A stretch of 7,065 nt of DNA from an uncultured bacterium (lineage in GTDB: Bacteria > Patescibacteria > Microgenomatia > Levybacterales > UBA12049). The position numbers and the translations under genes are program-made. Location of the stretch: positions 1 to 7,065 of the forward strand of contig CAMPGJ010000056.1 of assembly GCA_946885425.1 (NCBI GenBank), in the 5' to 3' direction. Below are positions 1,421-7,047 of this stretch, in pieces (position 1 is the stretch's first letter; every line of letters starts with the position of its first letter). The notes beneath the pieces were generated by a model. The model saw only the letters and a program-made list of their open reading frames with translations, was not told where the DNA came from and did not search any database.

Positions 1421-1453
1421 TATCCCCTATCCCCTATAACCTATCCCCTCTAT
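1421..1453 (-). repeat. imperfect GGGGATA heptamer repeat overlapping the 3' end of cyoE
   Basis: On the minus strand four adjacent 7-base units read GGGGATA, GGTTATA, GGGGATA and GGGGATA. The first two and part of the third are translated as the last residues of CyoE (GIGYRG), and the TAG stop at 1427-1429 is created inside the array. Confidence 0.6.
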
Positions 1454-2305
1454 TGCAAGTGTGATAAACAATCCCATCAAGACTATGAGGGAGAGGTAGA
1501 ACATTTTTCTTGCCCATCGTTTGGTGTTTGCTGTTCTTACTCCTCTTGTCCAGAGCAACAACCATGATGTACTGAGGAGCCCGGCAATAACCAGATAGAA
1601 TATCCCGGCATATCCAAAAAAATTCAGAGAAAGTACGGCGACGGTAAAAGCGATGATGTAGAGTAGCATTGCTACTTTTGTTTCGTTGATTCCTTTTATC
1701 ACTGGCAGGACGGGTATACTTGCGGCAGCATAGTCATCGGATCTATAGAGTGCGATTGCATAAAAATGAGGCATTTGCCAGATAACTAAAATAACAAAAA
1801 GAAGCAGTGCGCCCAGATCAAAGTTGGCTGTTACCGCGCAATAACCGATGACCGGAGGTGTCGCGCCTGAGACGGCTCCCACGAGCGTTCCGTGAATTGA
1901 GCGGCGTTTTCCGATACTATAAAAGATGACATAAAAAACAAATCCAAGACCAGCAAGTCCAAGTGTGATAAGGTTTGTATAAATAGCTAGAATAGAGGTT
2001 CCTGTGATACCAAGGATAATTCCATAGATAAGTGCATGTTTTTTTGGAATGAGTTTTTTTACCAGCGCCCTATCTTTTGTTCTCTCCATTTTTGTATCAA
2101 TGCCTTCATCAATACAATTATTAAAAACACATGCAGCTGCAATAATCAATGAAATCCCTGCCAGCATCGCCAATAATAGCCACCAATCTATAGTGCCTTT
2201 GGATGCAAAGAAAAATGCACAAACGGCAATCATAGCATTCCCTCGGACCATACCGGGTTTTGTTAGGAGATAGTATTGTTTCACTTTCTGCATAAGGCTC
2301 AGCAT
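1427..2305 (-). CDS. cyoE: protoheme IX farnesyltransferase (heme O synthase)
   Basis: This UbiA-superfamily membrane enzyme transfers a farnesyl group from farnesyl diphosphate to heme B, giving the heme O used by subunit I of the bo3 oxidase. The first prenyl-diphosphate-binding motif is NNCIDEGID (62-70), followed by KMERTKDRAL (72-81). The second Asp-containing site is YRSDDY (187-192), within the CyoE stretch from HFYAIALYRS to SIPVLPVIKG. About eight or nine hydrophobic segments are visible. The start is set at the ATG at 2305 because GAGGTGA lies just upstream; this gives 292 residues, close to the 296 of E. coli CyoE. An in-frame ATG at 2344 would add 13 polar residues with no such support. 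The gene follows cyoD by 57 bases. The C-terminus is about ten residues shorter than in E. coli and ends inside a heptamer repeat array. Confidence 0.95.
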   Translation of the reverse strand: MLSLMQKVKQYYLLTKPGMVRGNAMIAVCAFFFASKGTIDWWLLLAMLAGISLIIAAACVFNNCIDEGIDTKMERTKDRALVKKLIPKKHALIYGIILGITGTSILAIYTNLITLGLAGLGFVFYVIFYSIGKRRSIHGTLVGAVSGATPPVIGYCAVTANFDLGALLLFVILVIWQMPHFYAIALYRSDDYAAASIPVLPVIKGINETKVAMLLYIIAFTVAVLSLNFFGYAGIFYLVIAGLLSTSWLLLWTRGVRTANTKRWARKMFYLSLIVLMGLFITLAIEGIGYRG

Positions 2306-2307
2306 TA

Positions 2308-2314
2308 TCACCTC
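2308..2314 (-). promoter_or_regulatory. Shine-Dalgarno sequence that sets the cyoE start
   Basis: GAGGTGA on the minus strand is a 7-base match to the anti-Shine-Dalgarno complement. It ends two bases before the ATG at 2305, leaving about five bases after the GAGG core. It argues for 2305 over the in-frame ATG at 2344. Confidence 0.75.
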
Positions 2315-2362
2315 AAAAATATCATTTTTAGAGCAGTAAATCAATCGGTGGTATAGGAAAGA

Positions 2363-2710
2363 TTATTTATAGATTGCTTCTTTTTCCATGATATATCTAG
2401 TCATTTCATCCGGGGACATCAAATTATAATGGAGATGATTCATAATCCAGATAGAACCCAGGACGACGATGAGAATGATTGAAAAAGTTGTAAGGAAAGC
2501 CATTAGATTCCAGTGTGGTTTGGCTTCTCTTCCCATGTGCAGGAAGTATATCAATTGTATTGCAAGCTGTACAAAGGCAAGGATGATGATAGCAGCCAGA
2601 AGCATCGTGCCTGTTAGCAGATGATTTACGACAGCATAATAAGCTGCAAATGTAAGAGCTACAGAGAGAAGAAATCCAATGATAAATGATTTTGTTGTTT
2701 CTGTATGCAT
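2363..2710 (-). CDS. cyoD: cytochrome bo3 ubiquinol oxidase subunit IV
   Basis: This is the small subunit IV, a three-helix membrane protein that supports assembly of the heme-copper centre in subunit I. Predicted membrane segments are about residues 8-28, 34-56 and 69-91. Family landmarks are FIIGFLLS (9-16), FVQLAIQLIYFLHM (46-59) and GSIWIMNHLHYNLM (85-98), all matching E. coli CyoD in order. At 115 residues it is similar in length to E. coli CyoD (109), but the polar N-terminal tail is shorter and about 17 charged residues follow the usual C-terminus (99-115). No Shine-Dalgarno sequence precedes the ATG at 2710. The gene is separated from cyoC by 132 bases of repeat and hairpin sequence, an unusually large gap for this operon, so expression relative to cyoABC may differ. 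Confidence 0.93.
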   Translation of the reverse strand: MHTETTKSFIIGFLLSVALTFAAYYAVVNHLLTGTMLLAAIIILAFVQLAIQLIYFLHMGREAKPHWNLMAFLTTFSIILIVVLGSIWIMNHLHYNLMSPDEMTRYIMEKEAIYK

Positions 2711-2720
2711 AGATTTAATA

Positions 2721-2845
2721 ATTGTTACATTGTTTCACTGTTATATTGTTGGCGTTAATCCCCCCAGCCCCCTTTACCTAAAGGGGGTGGTCCGCAGACC
2801 GGGAGATTTAACAATTTAACTAGCAATTTAGCAATACAACAATTA
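2721..2845. repeat. palindromic repeat element between cyoC and cyoD
   Basis: The centre is a perfect 9-bp inverted repeat, CCCCCTTTA (2768-2776) with TAAAGGGGG (2779-2787). A second small hairpin follows, GGTC (2789-2792) with GACC (2797-2800). AT-rich flanks in opposite orientation lie on either side: ATTGTT units at 2721-2750, and ACAATTTA/AGCAATTTA units at 2810-2842 whose complement also reads ATTGTT. The right flank reaches the cyoC stop. The element has the size and symmetry of a non-autonomous palindromic repeat (REP or MITE-like) inserted in the operon. No T-run follows the stem, so full termination is not expected, but it could stabilise the cyoABC part of the mRNA. Confidence 0.6.
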
Positions 2846-3439
2846 TATTACACTCATCAGGTATACTATCGTAAAAATGAAAATCCAGACAATATCCAAA
2901 AAGTGCCAGAAAAGACTCAAGAGCATCAATTTTCTTATGTTATGGAAGGTGAATCCTTGCACTTGTACAGCTATCAGGCAGACTGCCATCCAGAGCAGAC
3001 CAAATGAGATATGCGCTCCATGTGTTCCCACAAGAGCGAAGAATGAAGACATAGCTCCGCTCCTCTGCCATCCATAGCCTTCGGCGATAAGTTTTTTAAA
3101 TTCATCGATTTCCAGGAAAAGGAACGCAAGCCCGAGGAAAAAGGTAATGCCGAACCAGGCAAATGTTTGTGTTTTTTCTTTATGATGCGCGGCAATCATA
3201 GCCAAACCGCAAGTGAAGCTACTTGTCAGAAGAATAAGTGTTTCCCACAGAACGAATTCCATGTTAAACAATTTACCCAGTTGTACGCCGCCATAGGTGC
3301 TTCCCCGAAGTACTGCAAAGGTTGCGAAAAGCACGCCAAACATGATGAGGTCGGTCATCAGGTATGTCCAGAATCCGAACATAGTCCGGTCCTGCGCTGC
3401 AAGTTTATGATGATCTAAATGTTCTTTTACTTCTTTCAT
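2843..3439 (-). CDS. cyoC: cytochrome bo3 ubiquinol oxidase subunit III
   Basis: Subunit III of the heme-copper quinol oxidase has no redox centre and stabilises subunit I and its proton uptake. Its 198 residues compare with 204 in E. coli CyoC. Five membrane segments are predicted (about 24-44, 61-83, 92-111, 132-158 and 172-195), the bacterial CyoC pattern, which lacks the first two helices of mitochondrial COX3. Landmarks are FGFWTYLMTD (21-30), the buried Glu in FLFLEIDEF (106-114), FALVGTHGAH (134-143) and LFWHFLDIVW (176-185). The short N-terminus is His- and Lys-rich, as in E. coli. The ATG at 3439 follows the cyoB stop by 11 bases without a Shine-Dalgarno sequence, so translational coupling to cyoB is likely. 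The gene appears intact. Confidence 0.95.
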   Translation of the reverse strand: MKEVKEHLDHHKLAAQDRTMFGFWTYLMTDLIMFGVLFATFAVLRGSTYGGVQLGKLFNMEFVLWETLILLTSSFTCGLAMIAAHHKEKTQTFAWFGITFFLGLAFLFLEIDEFKKLIAEGYGWQRSGAMSSFFALVGTHGAHISFGLLWMAVCLIAVQVQGFTFHNIRKLMLLSLFWHFLDIVWIFIFTIVYLMSVI

Positions 3440-3450
3440 ACGTTGAGATT

Positions 3451-5442
3451 TTATTTTTTATTTTTAATTTTTTTCTCCATCTTCTCTATTTCTGCTGCGG
3501 TGACTACATATTCATTGTTCACGTCAAATGATCGGATGAAAGCACAGGCAACTGCGCCGACCAGACCAATAATCGCGAAGAAGTAGCTATGGAATGTCAT
3601 GGCCAAACCAAAGAGGAAAACAAATCCGGAAAGATAGATGGCAAGTCCTGTATTTTTAGGCATTTCAATATCTACATATTTAGTTGGTGTTGTTTTCCCC
3701 TTCTTCATATCCCAAAATGGTTCGCGGCTGTGGACTTCAGGAATAACAGCAAAGTTATAAAAGGGTGGTGGTGATGTGGTCGCCCATTCGAGAGATCTTC
3801 CATTCCATGGATCTCCAGTTGTATCGAGATTTTGTTTCTTCTGTATGATACTGACAATTATCTGTACTATTTGCACAAGCACTCCACAGGCTATGATGGC
3901 TGCGCCGATGAGCGATACCATAAAGAGAGGCTGCCAACCTGTTGCTGCATCATAATGGTCAAGGCGTCTCGTAGCTCCCATAAGACCTAAAATATACATC
4001 GGTGTGAAGGCGACAAAGAATCCGATAAGCCAGAGCCAGAATGCATATTTTCCAATCCGTTCATTTAATCTTAAACCGAATATCTTCGGGAACCAATAGA
4101 CAAATCCGGCAAAAATACCAAAGAGTGCACCACCGACAATCATGGTATGGAAGTGTGCGACGAGGAACAAACTATTATGTACCTGGAAATCGACAGGTGG
4201 GATTGCCATGAGAACCCCCGCCATTCCTCCGAAGGTGAAAGTACTGATAAATCCAAAAAACCAGTACATAGGAGTTTTCATTTGAATTCGTCCTTTGTAC
4301 ATGGTGAGGAGCCAGTTACCTACCTGTATTCCTGTCGGGATAGCAATAAGCATGGTGACGATACCAAAGAAGGAGTTTACATTTGCTCCTGCTCCCATGG
4401 TGAAGAAGTGGTGAAGCCAGACGGAAAAGGATAGAAGCGTGATAGAAATGGCGCCAATGACTAATGTCGTATAGCCGAATAGACGTTTTTGGCTGAAGGT
4501 TGAAACAATTTCAGAATAGATTCCGAAGGCTGGAAGGATGAGGATATACACCTCAGGGTGTCCCCACATCCAGATGAGGTTCCAATACATCATCGGACTT
4601 CCGCCAAAATCAGTGGTAAAGAAATGTGTACCCATATAACGATCCAATGTGAGAAGGATGATTGTCATAGCGAGGATAGGGAAAATGGTGAGAATAAGAA
4701 CCATACTGCAAAGAGAGGTCCAGGTAAATAAGGGCATACGCATGAGGGTCATGCCCGGAGCGCGCATCTTGAGAATGGTGACAAAGAAATTAATTCCTCC
4801 GATCAGCGTTCCTAGTCCCGAGACCTGTAAGCTCCAAATCCAATAATCCATCCCCACCCCGGGGCTGAATTCAAGGCCGGAAAGCGGAGCTACTGCGAGC
4901 CATCCTGTCGCTGCAAATTCTCCTCCCAAAAAGAAAAAGAAATTGATAAGCCCGGCTCCTGCCACATATAACCAGAATCCCAATGAGTTAAGGAATGGAT
5001 ATGCCAGGTCGCGGGCGCCTATCTGCAAAGGGACGATGAAATTGATCAGGCCGAATAAGAACCCCATGGTGACAAAGAACACCATGATATCTCCATGCGC
5101 GGTGAGGATTTCCTGAAAATGTTGGGAATTGAGATAGCCATGTGAGGCTTCTACAAATCCAGGAGATGTGCTGGAACCCAAGGATTGTTGCAGCCAGATC
5201 ATAACTACGTCAAGTCCGCCGCGAGCGAACATCAGTGTCGCTACGATGAAATACATGATTCCGATTTTTTTCGGATCACATGAGGTGAGCCAATCATTCC
5301 ATAGCCATTTCCATCGCTTGGTCACTGTGAGGAAGATAGCAACAGCGATGAACATTCCTGTAATTCCCACGGTTCCGCCTATGGTGAACCATTCGTGTGG
5401 CAATTCATCTACAGTAAGTTTTCCAAAAATAAATTTGTCCAT
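3451..5442 (-). CDS. cyoB: cytochrome bo3 ubiquinol oxidase subunit I (natural K-channel variant)
   Basis: The catalytic subunit is 663 residues, the same length as E. coli CyoB, with about 15 membrane helices. It oxidises ubiquinol, reduces O2 at the heme o3-CuB centre and pumps protons. Low-spin heme ligands are H116 (TAHG) and H432; CuB ligands are H295, H344 and H345; the heme o3 ligand is H430. WGHPEVY (293-299) supplies the cross-linked His-Tyr pair and the D-channel glutamate E297. D-channel entrance residues D145, N134 and N152 are present. At the quinol site R74, D78 and H108 match E. coli R71, D75 and H98, whereas Q101 is E111. The K-channel lysine (E. coli K362, in IPTGVK) is Q373 here, encoded by CAG in IPTGIQ, while T370, Y299 and S310 are kept and S315 is T326. 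The C-terminal part keeps WATTSPPPFYNF (553-564). No Shine-Dalgarno sequence precedes the ATG, 29 bases after cyoA. Confidence 0.97.
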   Translation of the reverse strand: MDKFIFGKLTVDELPHEWFTIGGTVGITGMFIAVAIFLTVTKRWKWLWNDWLTSCDPKKIGIMYFIVATLMFARGGLDVVMIWLQQSLGSSTSPGFVEASHGYLNSQHFQEILTAHGDIMVFFVTMGFLFGLINFIVPLQIGARDLAYPFLNSLGFWLYVAGAGLINFFFFLGGEFAATGWLAVAPLSGLEFSPGVGMDYWIWSLQVSGLGTLIGGINFFVTILKMRAPGMTLMRMPLFTWTSLCSMVLILTIFPILAMTIILLTLDRYMGTHFFTTDFGGSPMMYWNLIWMWGHPEVYILILPAFGIYSEIVSTFSQKRLFGYTTLVIGAISITLLSFSVWLHHFFTMGAGANVNSFFGIVTMLIAIPTGIQVGNWLLTMYKGRIQMKTPMYWFFGFISTFTFGGMAGVLMAIPPVDFQVHNSLFLVAHFHTMIVGGALFGIFAGFVYWFPKIFGLRLNERIGKYAFWLWLIGFFVAFTPMYILGLMGATRRLDHYDAATGWQPLFMVSLIGAAIIACGVLVQIVQIIVSIIQKKQNLDTTGDPWNGRSLEWATTSPPPFYNFAVIPEVHSREPFWDMKKGKTTPTKYVDIEMPKNTGLAIYLSGFVFLFGLAMTFHSYFFAIIGLVGAVACAFIRSFDVNNEYVVTAAEIEKMEKKIKNKK

Positions 5443-5471
5443 AAATTATTAGCGTTAAGGTAAAGGGTTAG

Positions 5472-6398
5472 CTAGTGTTCCATTCCATGTTTTCCAGGCA
5501 TTGCTTCTGATGTTGGCATTTTATGTCCCCCACCATTTGCTGGCGCCTGGTATTTCATTATTATTGTACTGAAGAGATTGTCTGCTGTCGATGAGTAGAA
5601 TACAGGTGGATTATCTTCAGTTGGTTGAGTTAGAACCTTATATTCTTCACGGGTAAGTGCTTTTGAAGATTGTTTGACTGATGTGATCCATGTATCAAAA
5701 TCGTTTTGCGAGACTGATTTGACAGTAAATCTCATTCCGGCAAATCCTTTACCGCTTATTTCTGCATTAGAACCATAATATACACCAGTTTCATCCGCGA
5801 TGAGGTTGAGGCGATTGACCATCCCCGACATCGCGTAGAGTTGTCCACCCAGCCGAGGAACCCAAAATGAATTCATAGGGGCTTCATCAGCAGTCAACAC
5901 AAATTTGATAGGTGTTTTTTCAGGGATTGTAATATAGTTGACTGTGGCAATCCCCTGCTCCGGATATATAAACAGCCATTTCCAGCGGAGTGCAACAACT
6001 TGTATTGTCATTTCTTTTTTGTCGGATTGGATTGGTGAATGAGGTTCCCATTTGAAGGTGGCGTTCCACATGATGATACAAAGGATAAAAATAATTGTTG
6101 TTGGCAAGGCCCACCAGGCTAATTGTATTTTGATATCGTGATCCCAATCAGGAGTATATTTACTTTTTGTATTGCCTTCACGATAATTCATGACTACATA
6201 AATAGCAAAAAGAAAAACAGGGACAACGACAATGAGCATCAATAATATCGCATTCACAAAAAGGCTTTTTTGTTGTGCAGCAATCAAACCTTTTGGATCG
6301 AGTACTGAAATGGGATTATTACCTATTAATATTGAAAGTATTAAGGCAAAATCAAGAGCAAGAAGAGCAAGAATGATGAATTTATATTTAGTTTTCAT
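5472..6398 (-). CDS. cyoA: cytochrome bo3 ubiquinol oxidase subunit II (no CuA; no lipobox)
   Basis: Subunit II of the quinol oxidase has 308 residues (E. coli CyoA 315). A hydrophobic N-terminal segment (about 7-27) and two membrane helices (about 48-70 and 93-115) precede a periplasmic cupredoxin domain (130-230). Matching stretches are LDPKGLIAAQQKSL (33-46), WKWLFIYPEQGIATVN (139-154), MNSFWVPRLGGQLYAM (175-190) and SGKGFAGMRF (215-224). The Cys, His and Met ligands of CuA are absent, as expected for a quinol rather than cytochrome c oxidase. E. coli CyoA is a lipoprotein (LSGC), but here the same site reads LIGNN and no lipobox cysteine exists. The K-channel entrance residue E89 of E. 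coli is Q92 here. The tail (288-308) is rich in Gly, His and Met. It is the first gene of the operon, with a promoter just upstream and AAGG directly next to the ATG. Confidence 0.96.
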   Translation of the reverse strand: MKTKYKFIILALLALDFALILSILIGNNPISVLDPKGLIAAQQKSLFVNAILLMLIVVVPVFLFAIYVVMNYREGNTKSKYTPDWDHDIKIQLAWWALPTTIIFILCIIMWNATFKWEPHSPIQSDKKEMTIQVVALRWKWLFIYPEQGIATVNYITIPEKTPIKFVLTADEAPMNSFWVPRLGGQLYAMSGMVNRLNLIADETGVYYGSNAEISGKGFAGMRFTVKSVSQNDFDTWITSVKQSSKALTREEYKVLTQPTEDNPPVFYSSTADNLFSTIIMKYQAPANGGGHKMPTSEAMPGKHGMEH

Positions 6399-6438: not shown

Positions 6439-6466
6439 TTGATTTAGTTCATGGAGATGTTAAATT
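6439..6466 (+). promoter_or_regulatory. candidate promoter of the divergent plus-strand gene
   Basis: TTGATT (6439-6444), a 16-base spacer ending in TGT, and TAAATT (6461-6466) form a modest extended -10 promoter 11 bases before the ATG at 6478. A competing -10 box, TGCTAGTAT (6488-6496), lies inside the reading frame 8 bases before the ATG at 6505. It looks like the cyoA promoter on the other strand (both contain TGTGCTA). Choosing between them decides the start codon. Confidence 0.3.
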
Positions 6467-6477
6467 ACTGCAAAAGG

Positions 6478-7047
6478 ATGAGGTTTGTGCTAGTATGTAG
6501 GCACATGTCTGCTGAGCATTTTTCACCAAAAGAAGATAGAAGAGAAGGGGATTTATTTCCCATAAGCAAAGTTGCTGTTGAAAGTGCTTTATTTTCGATC
6601 TCGATAGACCCTCCCGCTAAAATGAATGAAGAATATGGTTTGCTTGGAGAGCGAAATCCGTCATTAAAAAGATTTATTTTATCGCAAATGCAAGAATATG
6701 ATGATGAGAGTGCCTCAAGAGAATTTTTTGAAGGGGCTCTATGGTCACATAAAATACTTCGGTATAATTTGCCTTCGCGCCAACTTCCTGTATTATCAGA
6801 AACGATATCTGATTCTATCTATAATGTCGCTGTAGCAGAACATCCCGAAAAAACTTTTAAGGAAATATGCGCTGATAAGCTGATGAAAGTATTCCGTTCA
6901 GAAGAAAATTTGGAGGCAGGAATCAAGGAAATGACACGATATAAAACAAGCAATATAGATTTCTATTTCGGAGCATATACAGTCATAGGTAGTTTCGGCA
7001 AACAAGAAGAAATAAAAAAACTAAACGCCTCCATGGGGTTAGAATAA
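6478..7047 (+). CDS. uncharacterised protein, possibly histidine-phosphatase-like
   Basis: I do not firmly recognise this gene. From the ATG at 6478 it encodes 189 residues, soluble and rich in Glu and Lys, with no signal peptide or membrane segment. The N-terminus, MRFVLVCRHMSAEH, resembles the first strand and catalytic RH motif of the histidine phosphatase (phosphoglycerate mutase-like) superfamily. DLFPISKVAVESA (25-37) sits where that family has its PLTxxGxxQA stretch. The length also fits. However, the second catalytic His, normally in a VSHG-like motif near the C-terminus, is not evident: the best candidate reads VIGSFG. It would therefore be a divergent or inactive member, or unrelated. 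In-frame ATGs at 6451, 6460 and 6505 are alternatives. 6478 is chosen because it puts RH at residues 8-9, the family's usual place; 6505 would remove it. It is transcribed divergently from cyoA. Confidence 0.6.
   Translation: MRFVLVCRHMSAEHFSPKEDRREGDLFPISKVAVESALFSISIDPPAKMNEEYGLLGERNPSLKRFILSQMQEYDDESASREFFEGALWSHKILRYNLPSRQLPVLSETISDSIYNVAVAEHPEKTFKEICADKLMKVFRSEENLEAGIKEMTRYKTSNIDFYFGAYTVIGSFGKQEEIKKLNASMGLE

Follow-up and report, generated by a model that had tools for sequence, protein, structure and literature searches.

The window, a stretch of 7,065 nucleotides from an uncultured bacterium of the Patescibacteria (Levybacterales; contig CAMPGJ010000056.1 of assembly GCA_946885425.1), carries on its minus strand five full-length frames in the order cyoA-cyoB-cyoC-cyoD-cyoE, the arrangement known from Escherichia coli. 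Table 1 lists these genes together with the residues that are discussed below. Two of the products fell under the NCBIfam cut-offs that delimit the equivalogs of the E. coli bo3 type, CyoB with 961 bits against a TIGR02843 cut-off of 1020, and CyoA only slightly, with 263.5 bits against a TIGR01433 cut-off of 266.2.

Table 1. Genes of the cyo locus and residues of CyoB and CyoA in the window, with E. coli K-12 counterparts assigned by alignment; fractions refer to CyoB homologues.
Feature	Position	Strand	E. coli counterpart	Evidence or remark
CyoE/CtaB, haem O synthase	1427..2344	-		TIGR01473 over cut-off
CyoD (subunit IV)	2363..2710	-		TIGR02847 over cut-off
CyoC (subunit III)	2843..3439	-		TIGR02842 over cut-off
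CyoB-like subunit I, 663 aa	3451..5442	-	bo3 chain 1fft_A (7.7e-250)	PF00115 (8.2e-141)
CyoA-like subunit II, 308 aa	5472..6398	-		PF06481 and PF00116; without CuA cysteines
CyoB Gln373	4324..4326	-	K362	codon CAG; alignment
CyoB Thr370	4333..4335	-	T359	K-path residue, kept; T in 167/183
CyoB Thr326	4465..4467	-	S315	S in 172/183, T in 8/183
CyoB Ser310	4513..4515	-	S299	K-path residue, kept; S in 182/183
CyoB Tyr299	4546..4548	-	Y288	active-site Tyr, GHPEVY motif; 183/183
CyoB Glu297	4552..4554	-	E286	D-channel end; 183/183
CyoB Gly173	4924..4926	-		one-residue insertion, clade marker; adjoins FF 169-170
CyoB Asp145	5008..5010	-	D135	D-channel entrance; 183/183
CyoB Trp83	5194..5196	-	R80	clade marker
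CyoA Glu213	5760..5762	-	position 209	clade marker
CyoA Gln92	6123..6125	-	E89	codon CAA; alignment

Residues were mapped by alignment with CyoB and CyoA of E. coli K-12, whose numbering is used here unless a window residue is named. K362 of subunit I is a textbook essential residue, whose replacement alone suffices to abolish oxidase activity. The window enzyme has Gln in its place, and a second Gln occupies the position of E89, the entrance Glu in subunit II. Both substitutions had been claimed in an earlier note on this DNA, as had a Thr (Thr326) in the place of S315 and an intact set of Asp145, Asn134, Asn152, Glu297 and His ligands; the alignments bore out all of these points, and Tyr299 is intact as well. 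Among the CyoB homologues the D-channel residues D135, N124 and N142, intact in the window, are each conserved in 183/183 proteins, and the His ligands H106, H284, H333, H334, H419 and H421, all of them present in the window, in 183, 183, 182, 183, 183 and 183 of 183 respectively. We take R71, D75, H98 and Q101 to be the quinol-site residues of bo3: the first three are kept, and the Q101 column has Glu in the window and in 17/183 homologues, and Gln in 166/183.

Compared with E. coli bo3 (CyoABCDE; PDB 1fft and later), the window shares the gene order, the haem and CuB ligands, Tyr288, Glu286, the D channel, the quinol-site residues R71, D75 and H98 and a subunit II without CuA cysteines, but differs by K362Q, E89Q, Glu for Q101, Trp for R80, a one-residue insertion, and Glu at CyoA position 209. 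On the strength of these alignments and profile matches, we assign the window CyoB as subunit I of a K-less bo3-type quinol oxidase, i.e. one without the K-channel Lys. Because this Lys is missing from the window protein and from 178/183 homologues, the enzyme is filed here as a variant of the A-type (A1) haem-copper oxygen reductases and not as a canonical member.

The 183 distinct CyoB homologues, which include the window's own, came from two lists that each hold the best 120 proteins. The protein lists used in this analysis are the best 120 of 8000 scored, or of 5488, and one best-120-of-8000 list was seeded with a K-bearing member of the clade described below. At the K362 column these proteins have Q in 161 cases, L in 17 and K in 5, and the first list alone, the best 120 CyoB homologues, gives Q 112, L 6 and K 2. 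Neither Thr nor Ser was found at this column in any of the 183. Since Lys is absent from 178 of them, and since the window CyoB is recorded on four contigs, a sequencing or assembly error, which the earlier note would have thought likely had all CyoB homologues of the lineage kept K362, is ruled out. Among 49 related genome loci, 19 had Q, L or M at K362 and 30 had K. Of 379 patescibacterial genomes, 30 matched (10 K-less and 20 K-bearing loci), as did 94/151 chlamydial genomes, where the best-scoring 30 loci comprised 8 K-less and 22 K-bearing ones; 9/109 loci were left out as duplicate CyoB. Leu, Met or Ile also occur at the K362 column among the loci, Met and Ile only rarely.

The trees were built with the K362 column removed. 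In the 105-row tree, a quick search with many open forks and thinned Bacillus-type rows, all 54 K-less rows and two K rows formed one 56-row clade (SH-aLRT 100, stem 0.29), inside which 11 rows from chlamydial metagenome-assembled genomes (MAGs) made up a sub-branch (SH-aLRT 100). Judged from these placements, K-less bo3-type quinol oxidases are a trait of a clade in small Patescibacteria with a nested chlamydial branch. One row of that branch, L009, is labelled Solirubrobacterales; its bin also carries three COX1 genes of another type, which makes mis-binning possible, and three loci of the bin other than L009 have Lys and the Glu of E89.

In the 79-row tree, built by the same quick approach, a clade of 71 rows (SH-aLRT 100) united 66 K-less rows with the five K-bearing ones, the latter mostly basal: P0089 branched first, P0257, P0258 and P0264 came next, alongside Leu/Ile forms, and P0063 lay deeper, among Leu/Gln forms. 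This tree required four changes between Lys and other states, and a constrained topology with a single K-less clade was rejected (p-AU 0.0026), so that, on this phylogeny, Lys has been lost more than once, or regained. A regain of Lys from Gln takes a one-base change. Several markers characterize the clade beyond the Lys itself. The inserted Gly173 was present in 54/54 K-less rows as well as in P0063 and P0089, and the column was a gap in 48/49 other K rows; the R80 column has W in 178/183 clade proteins and R in 49/49 K-bearing outgroup rows. Clade-wide changes that include the K-bearing members are W15, W80 (4/5 K members), T115, Y149, F159, F160, A428, I432 and others. In CyoA, position 209, which falls in what is the CuA-binding loop of cytochrome c oxidases, has Glu in 29/30 K-less loci and in 0/54 K-bearing non-Bacillus loci (52 of them with N).

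We then compared the two sites where CyoA and CyoB are encoded at the same locus (102 rows). All 70 readable K-bearing rows had E89 (two were truncated), and 24 of the 29 readable K-less rows (one was truncated) were without Glu: the 29 comprised Q 14, E 5, D 3, I 2, and L, T, A, N and K once each. On the tree the E89 column changed 14 times among 28 K-less rows and not once among 47 K-bearing rows; the next most variable of the 21 CyoA columns that are invariant in the K set changed three times. Eighteen CyoA/CyoB protein pairs, presumed partners because their contigs are equally long, gave Q 12, E 5 and A 1, and the list of the best 120 CyoA proteins, which is unpaired, E 69, Q 46 and other residues 5. 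Position 209 splits this list, E89 being found in 46/46 proteins with N209 and in 23/74 with E209. Since Glu is kept in 5/18 inferred pairs and in 23/74 E209 proteins, the counts argue that the entrance Glu is relaxed, rather than uniformly lost, in the K-less clade. The earlier note had spoken of two coordinated losses in an otherwise conserved enzyme, and this description holds only in part. The two sites are indeed evolutionarily linked, with E89 varying only in K-less enzymes among the readable loci; but loss of the Lys marks a large clade and was repeated or partly reversed, and the E89 changes, which lead to Q, D, I, L, T, A, N or K while other K-less enzymes retain Glu, resemble repeated later loosening.

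CyoB was relaxed at further positions. Eleven of the 116 columns that are invariant in the K set were relaxed in K-less rows (80, 111, 173, 247, 310, 312, 323, 359, 360, 362 and 364), and six of the 11 lie at most five residues from a K-path residue (p 0.011 without K362; p 0.014 with a three-residue window); near D-channel residues, 0/18 invariant columns were relaxed. The high retention of S299, S315 and T359 (Table 1) counts against complete erosion of the K path, and with its upper residues largely kept the old path may still conduct in part. A possible, if rather unlikely, explanation of the K-less enzymes is that Gln or extra water, standing in for the Lys side chain, passes protons slowly through S299 and T359 to Tyr288, maybe from an entrance other than E89. 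Such a route would suit the retention of S299, T359, S315 and Tyr288 in most homologues, the prevalence of Gln among the replacements, and the column of Y298, which adjoins S299 and is Tyr in 151/178 K-less proteins (1/5 K-bearing clade members; 7/49 outgroup rows). However, Leu (17/183), Met and Ile at K362 are no proton carriers, columns 310, 312, 359, 360 and 364 have loosened, E89 is replaced by I, L, A or T in some proteins, and Y298 shows no consistent link to Lys loss on the tree, where it can be compared in 2 or 3 independent pairs only.

A scan of 147 K-less against 55 K rows, from which 18 Bacillus-type K rows were left out, found no ionisable CyoB column that is near-universal in K-less and absent in K-bearing rows. 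Two candidates were enriched without being universal, namely D/N108, where K rows have V or T, and Y298; neither followed Lys loss consistently on the tree. CyoA Glu209 is a discriminating column but sits in the soluble domain, and hence it was not taken as a K-path substitute; presumably it matches the Mg-binding subunit-interface Glu of the Rhodobacter sphaeroides oxidase. The alternative K channel of the B-type (ba3) oxidases was considered as well. These enzymes, too, have no Lys at the position equivalent to K362, and we assume that their Tyr, Ser and Thr sites correspond exactly to A-type K-path positions. B-type oxidases fill these places with Tyr, Ser and Thr (PMC3084760), and a D channel is absent from them. 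In the K-less clade, by contrast, Ser299 and Thr359 persist, 362 is Gln or Leu, and a D channel is present, which rules the B-type route out.

To gauge constraint on the K-less genes, we compared pairs of sequences. In six K-less pairs the dN of CyoB was 0.06-0.17, with synonymous differences of 0.62 to 0.81 per site that are mostly saturated; dN/dS was about 0.05 to 0.06 in the two K-less pairs for which dS was computable, and a K-bearing control pair had a similar dN of 0.10. CyoA evolves faster (dN 0.16 to 0.37). By these rates K-less CyoB is under purifying selection. That the genes encode a decaying, non-functional oxidase is extremely improbable: a residue regarded as essential has been lost, but the five frames are full-length and in order, cofactor ligands and D channel are conserved, and CyoB diverges in K-less pairs much as it does in the K-bearing pair.

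The K-less cyoB was the sole COX1-family (PF00115) gene in 10/10 small-genome hosts searched, and a bd oxidase was found in none of 18 small-genome K-less hosts, whose MAGs may be incomplete; the K-less enzyme is thus the only terminal oxidase found in these hosts. Searches for subunit a of ATP synthase succeeded in 17/18 of them. Chlamydial K-less hosts are differently equipped, with a bd oxidase in 7/8, and ten chlamydial genomes with a K-less copy contain 11 further CyoB copies, all with Lys, and with Glu at E89 in 9/9 cases where CyoA was readable. These inventories bear on a further explanation, i.e. that the enzyme is mainly a proton-translocating quinol peroxidase, reducing H2O2, or a slow O2 scavenger. 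In R. sphaeroides, replacing this Lys by Met (K362M) abolishes oxidase activity but spares peroxidase activity, and the peroxidase phase uses the D channel only (PMC7601700), the channel that is intact here; moreover, O2 scavenging has been proposed for these bacteria (PMC9166423), and in the chlamydial hosts a K-bearing copy exists besides the K-less one. Against this stand the small-genome hosts, in which the enzyme is the only terminal oxidase found and occurs together with ATP synthase, and an active site without any change that points to a new substrate. We regard a peroxidase or scavenger role as unlikely.

During reduction, the active-site Tyr receives one or two protons by way of the K channel (PMC8079940, PMC8361435), and mutants without the Lys still perform the first reduction step (PMC8079940). 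With Tyr and D channel kept and the Lys site drifting as far as Leu, three explanations are left, which we rank as follows: supply of these protons through the D channel, their leakage through the old path, and H2O2 reduction, for which they would not be needed. The first of these, to which we give an even chance, is that the window encodes a quinol:O2 oxidoreductase of the bo3 type whose clade no longer needs the lysine-dependent K pathway and draws its protons mainly through the D channel instead. Its first step, the dispensing with the Lys pathway, is well supported; the D pathway is probably the route by which protons reach the site. As the clade markers are already present in K-bearing members, changes on the stem would precede Lys loss in this scheme: R80W, S159F/L160F together with the one-residue insertion, and a substitution at A281, next to the HPEVY motif, are examples of changes that would have made the Lys dispensable. 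The Lys would afterwards have been lost, its site drifting among Q, L, M and I, and the entrance Glu E89 would have relaxed after that. The binuclear centre and the Tyr of the active site would now receive their reduction-phase protons mainly through the intact D channel and E286, possibly at a cost in speed or pumping yield. Published mutants without the K-channel Lys lose oxidase activity (PMC7601700, PMC10341450), which tells against D-channel supply. Only tentatively do we propose that nature may have produced here an A-type quinol oxidase for which the D channel alone suffices for turnover, and maybe for pumping, or, more boldly, an enzyme that acts mainly as a D-channel-driven quinol peroxidase.

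Both the lineage of these genes and its transfer were already in the literature. Patescibacterial and chlamydial cyo operons of the same lineage as the window have been described (PMC8407418, PMC9166423, PMC9816063, PMC6031116); a proteobacterial origin of the bo3 operons of the Candidate Phyla Radiation (CPR) has been proposed and their link to Chlamydiae published (PMC9166423, PMC8407418, PMC7507113, PMC9816063), and for CPR subunit I, one study reported that Parachlamydiales branch off inside Saccharimonadia (PMC9166423). An analysis of the missing K pathway was not found in the literature searched, which lay outside preprints and most subscription papers: no paper on the K channel in Patescibacteria came up, and for Saccharibacteria only PMC6031116 did. 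The main text of that paper refers, for subunit I, to 'some functional residues' and a 'discrepancy' from E. coli, and its text mentions 'K-channel' and 'D-channel' once each, perhaps in the legend of supplementary figure S2; the absence of the Lys from one sequence may thus have been noticed there. Archaeal family A oxidases are likewise described as being without a canonical K channel (PMC8239418), but archaeal COX1 is a lineage distinct from the quinol oxidases studied here, and the 'seven losses' mentioned in that paper follow from a hypothesis which the authors of the paper reject.

Were either of the readings that rely on the D channel alone to hold, the two-channel design of A-type oxidases would be dispensable, and could be undone by a few changes on a stem. 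The natural K-less clade, its basal K-bearing members and the K-bearing second copies in Chlamydiae form a ready comparison set, which bears on why two proton channels exist, what makes one of them dispensable, and what its loss may cost in pumping or rate. It likewise bears on how Patescibacteria use O2, be it in respiration for energy or for scavenging only.

The clade is further marked in CyoA, by a Glu at E. coli position 209 (CyoA residue 213, window 5760-5762). This Glu was present in 29 of 30 loci whose CyoB lacks the Lys of the E. coli K362 column (K-less), versus none of the 54 K-bearing loci. The surrounding region is presumably the equivalent of the loop which, in cytochrome c oxidases, holds CuA and an Mg ligand at the interface. 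In CyoB, residue 118 (E. coli 108) lies two residues past the haem b ligand H106; most K-less proteins have Asp or Asn there, K-bearing ones Thr or Val. This is a polar change adjoining the low-spin haem.

Several CyoB homologues, P0014 and P0015 among them, are bo3-like but carry the NCBI name 'cbb3-type cytochrome c oxidase subunit I'. Like the window CyoB, they score under the cut-off of the CyoB model (TIGR02843).

The other frames and repeats of the window are listed below; the 198-aa frame had no match in Pfam or NCBIfam.

Other frames and repeats in the window
Feature	Position	Strand
HAD hydrolase, start of gene	3-233	-
Short A+T-rich repeats, direct and inverted, intergenic	304-379	
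DUF1761 protein	387-797	-
PCC/DUF296-domain protein	879-1319	-
198-aa frame	6451-7047	+

In ten examined chlamydial genomes K-less and K-bearing bo3 copies occur together (e.g. as two bo3 operons in the genomes of L083 and L111), and this coexistence suggests a division of labour between the two kinds.
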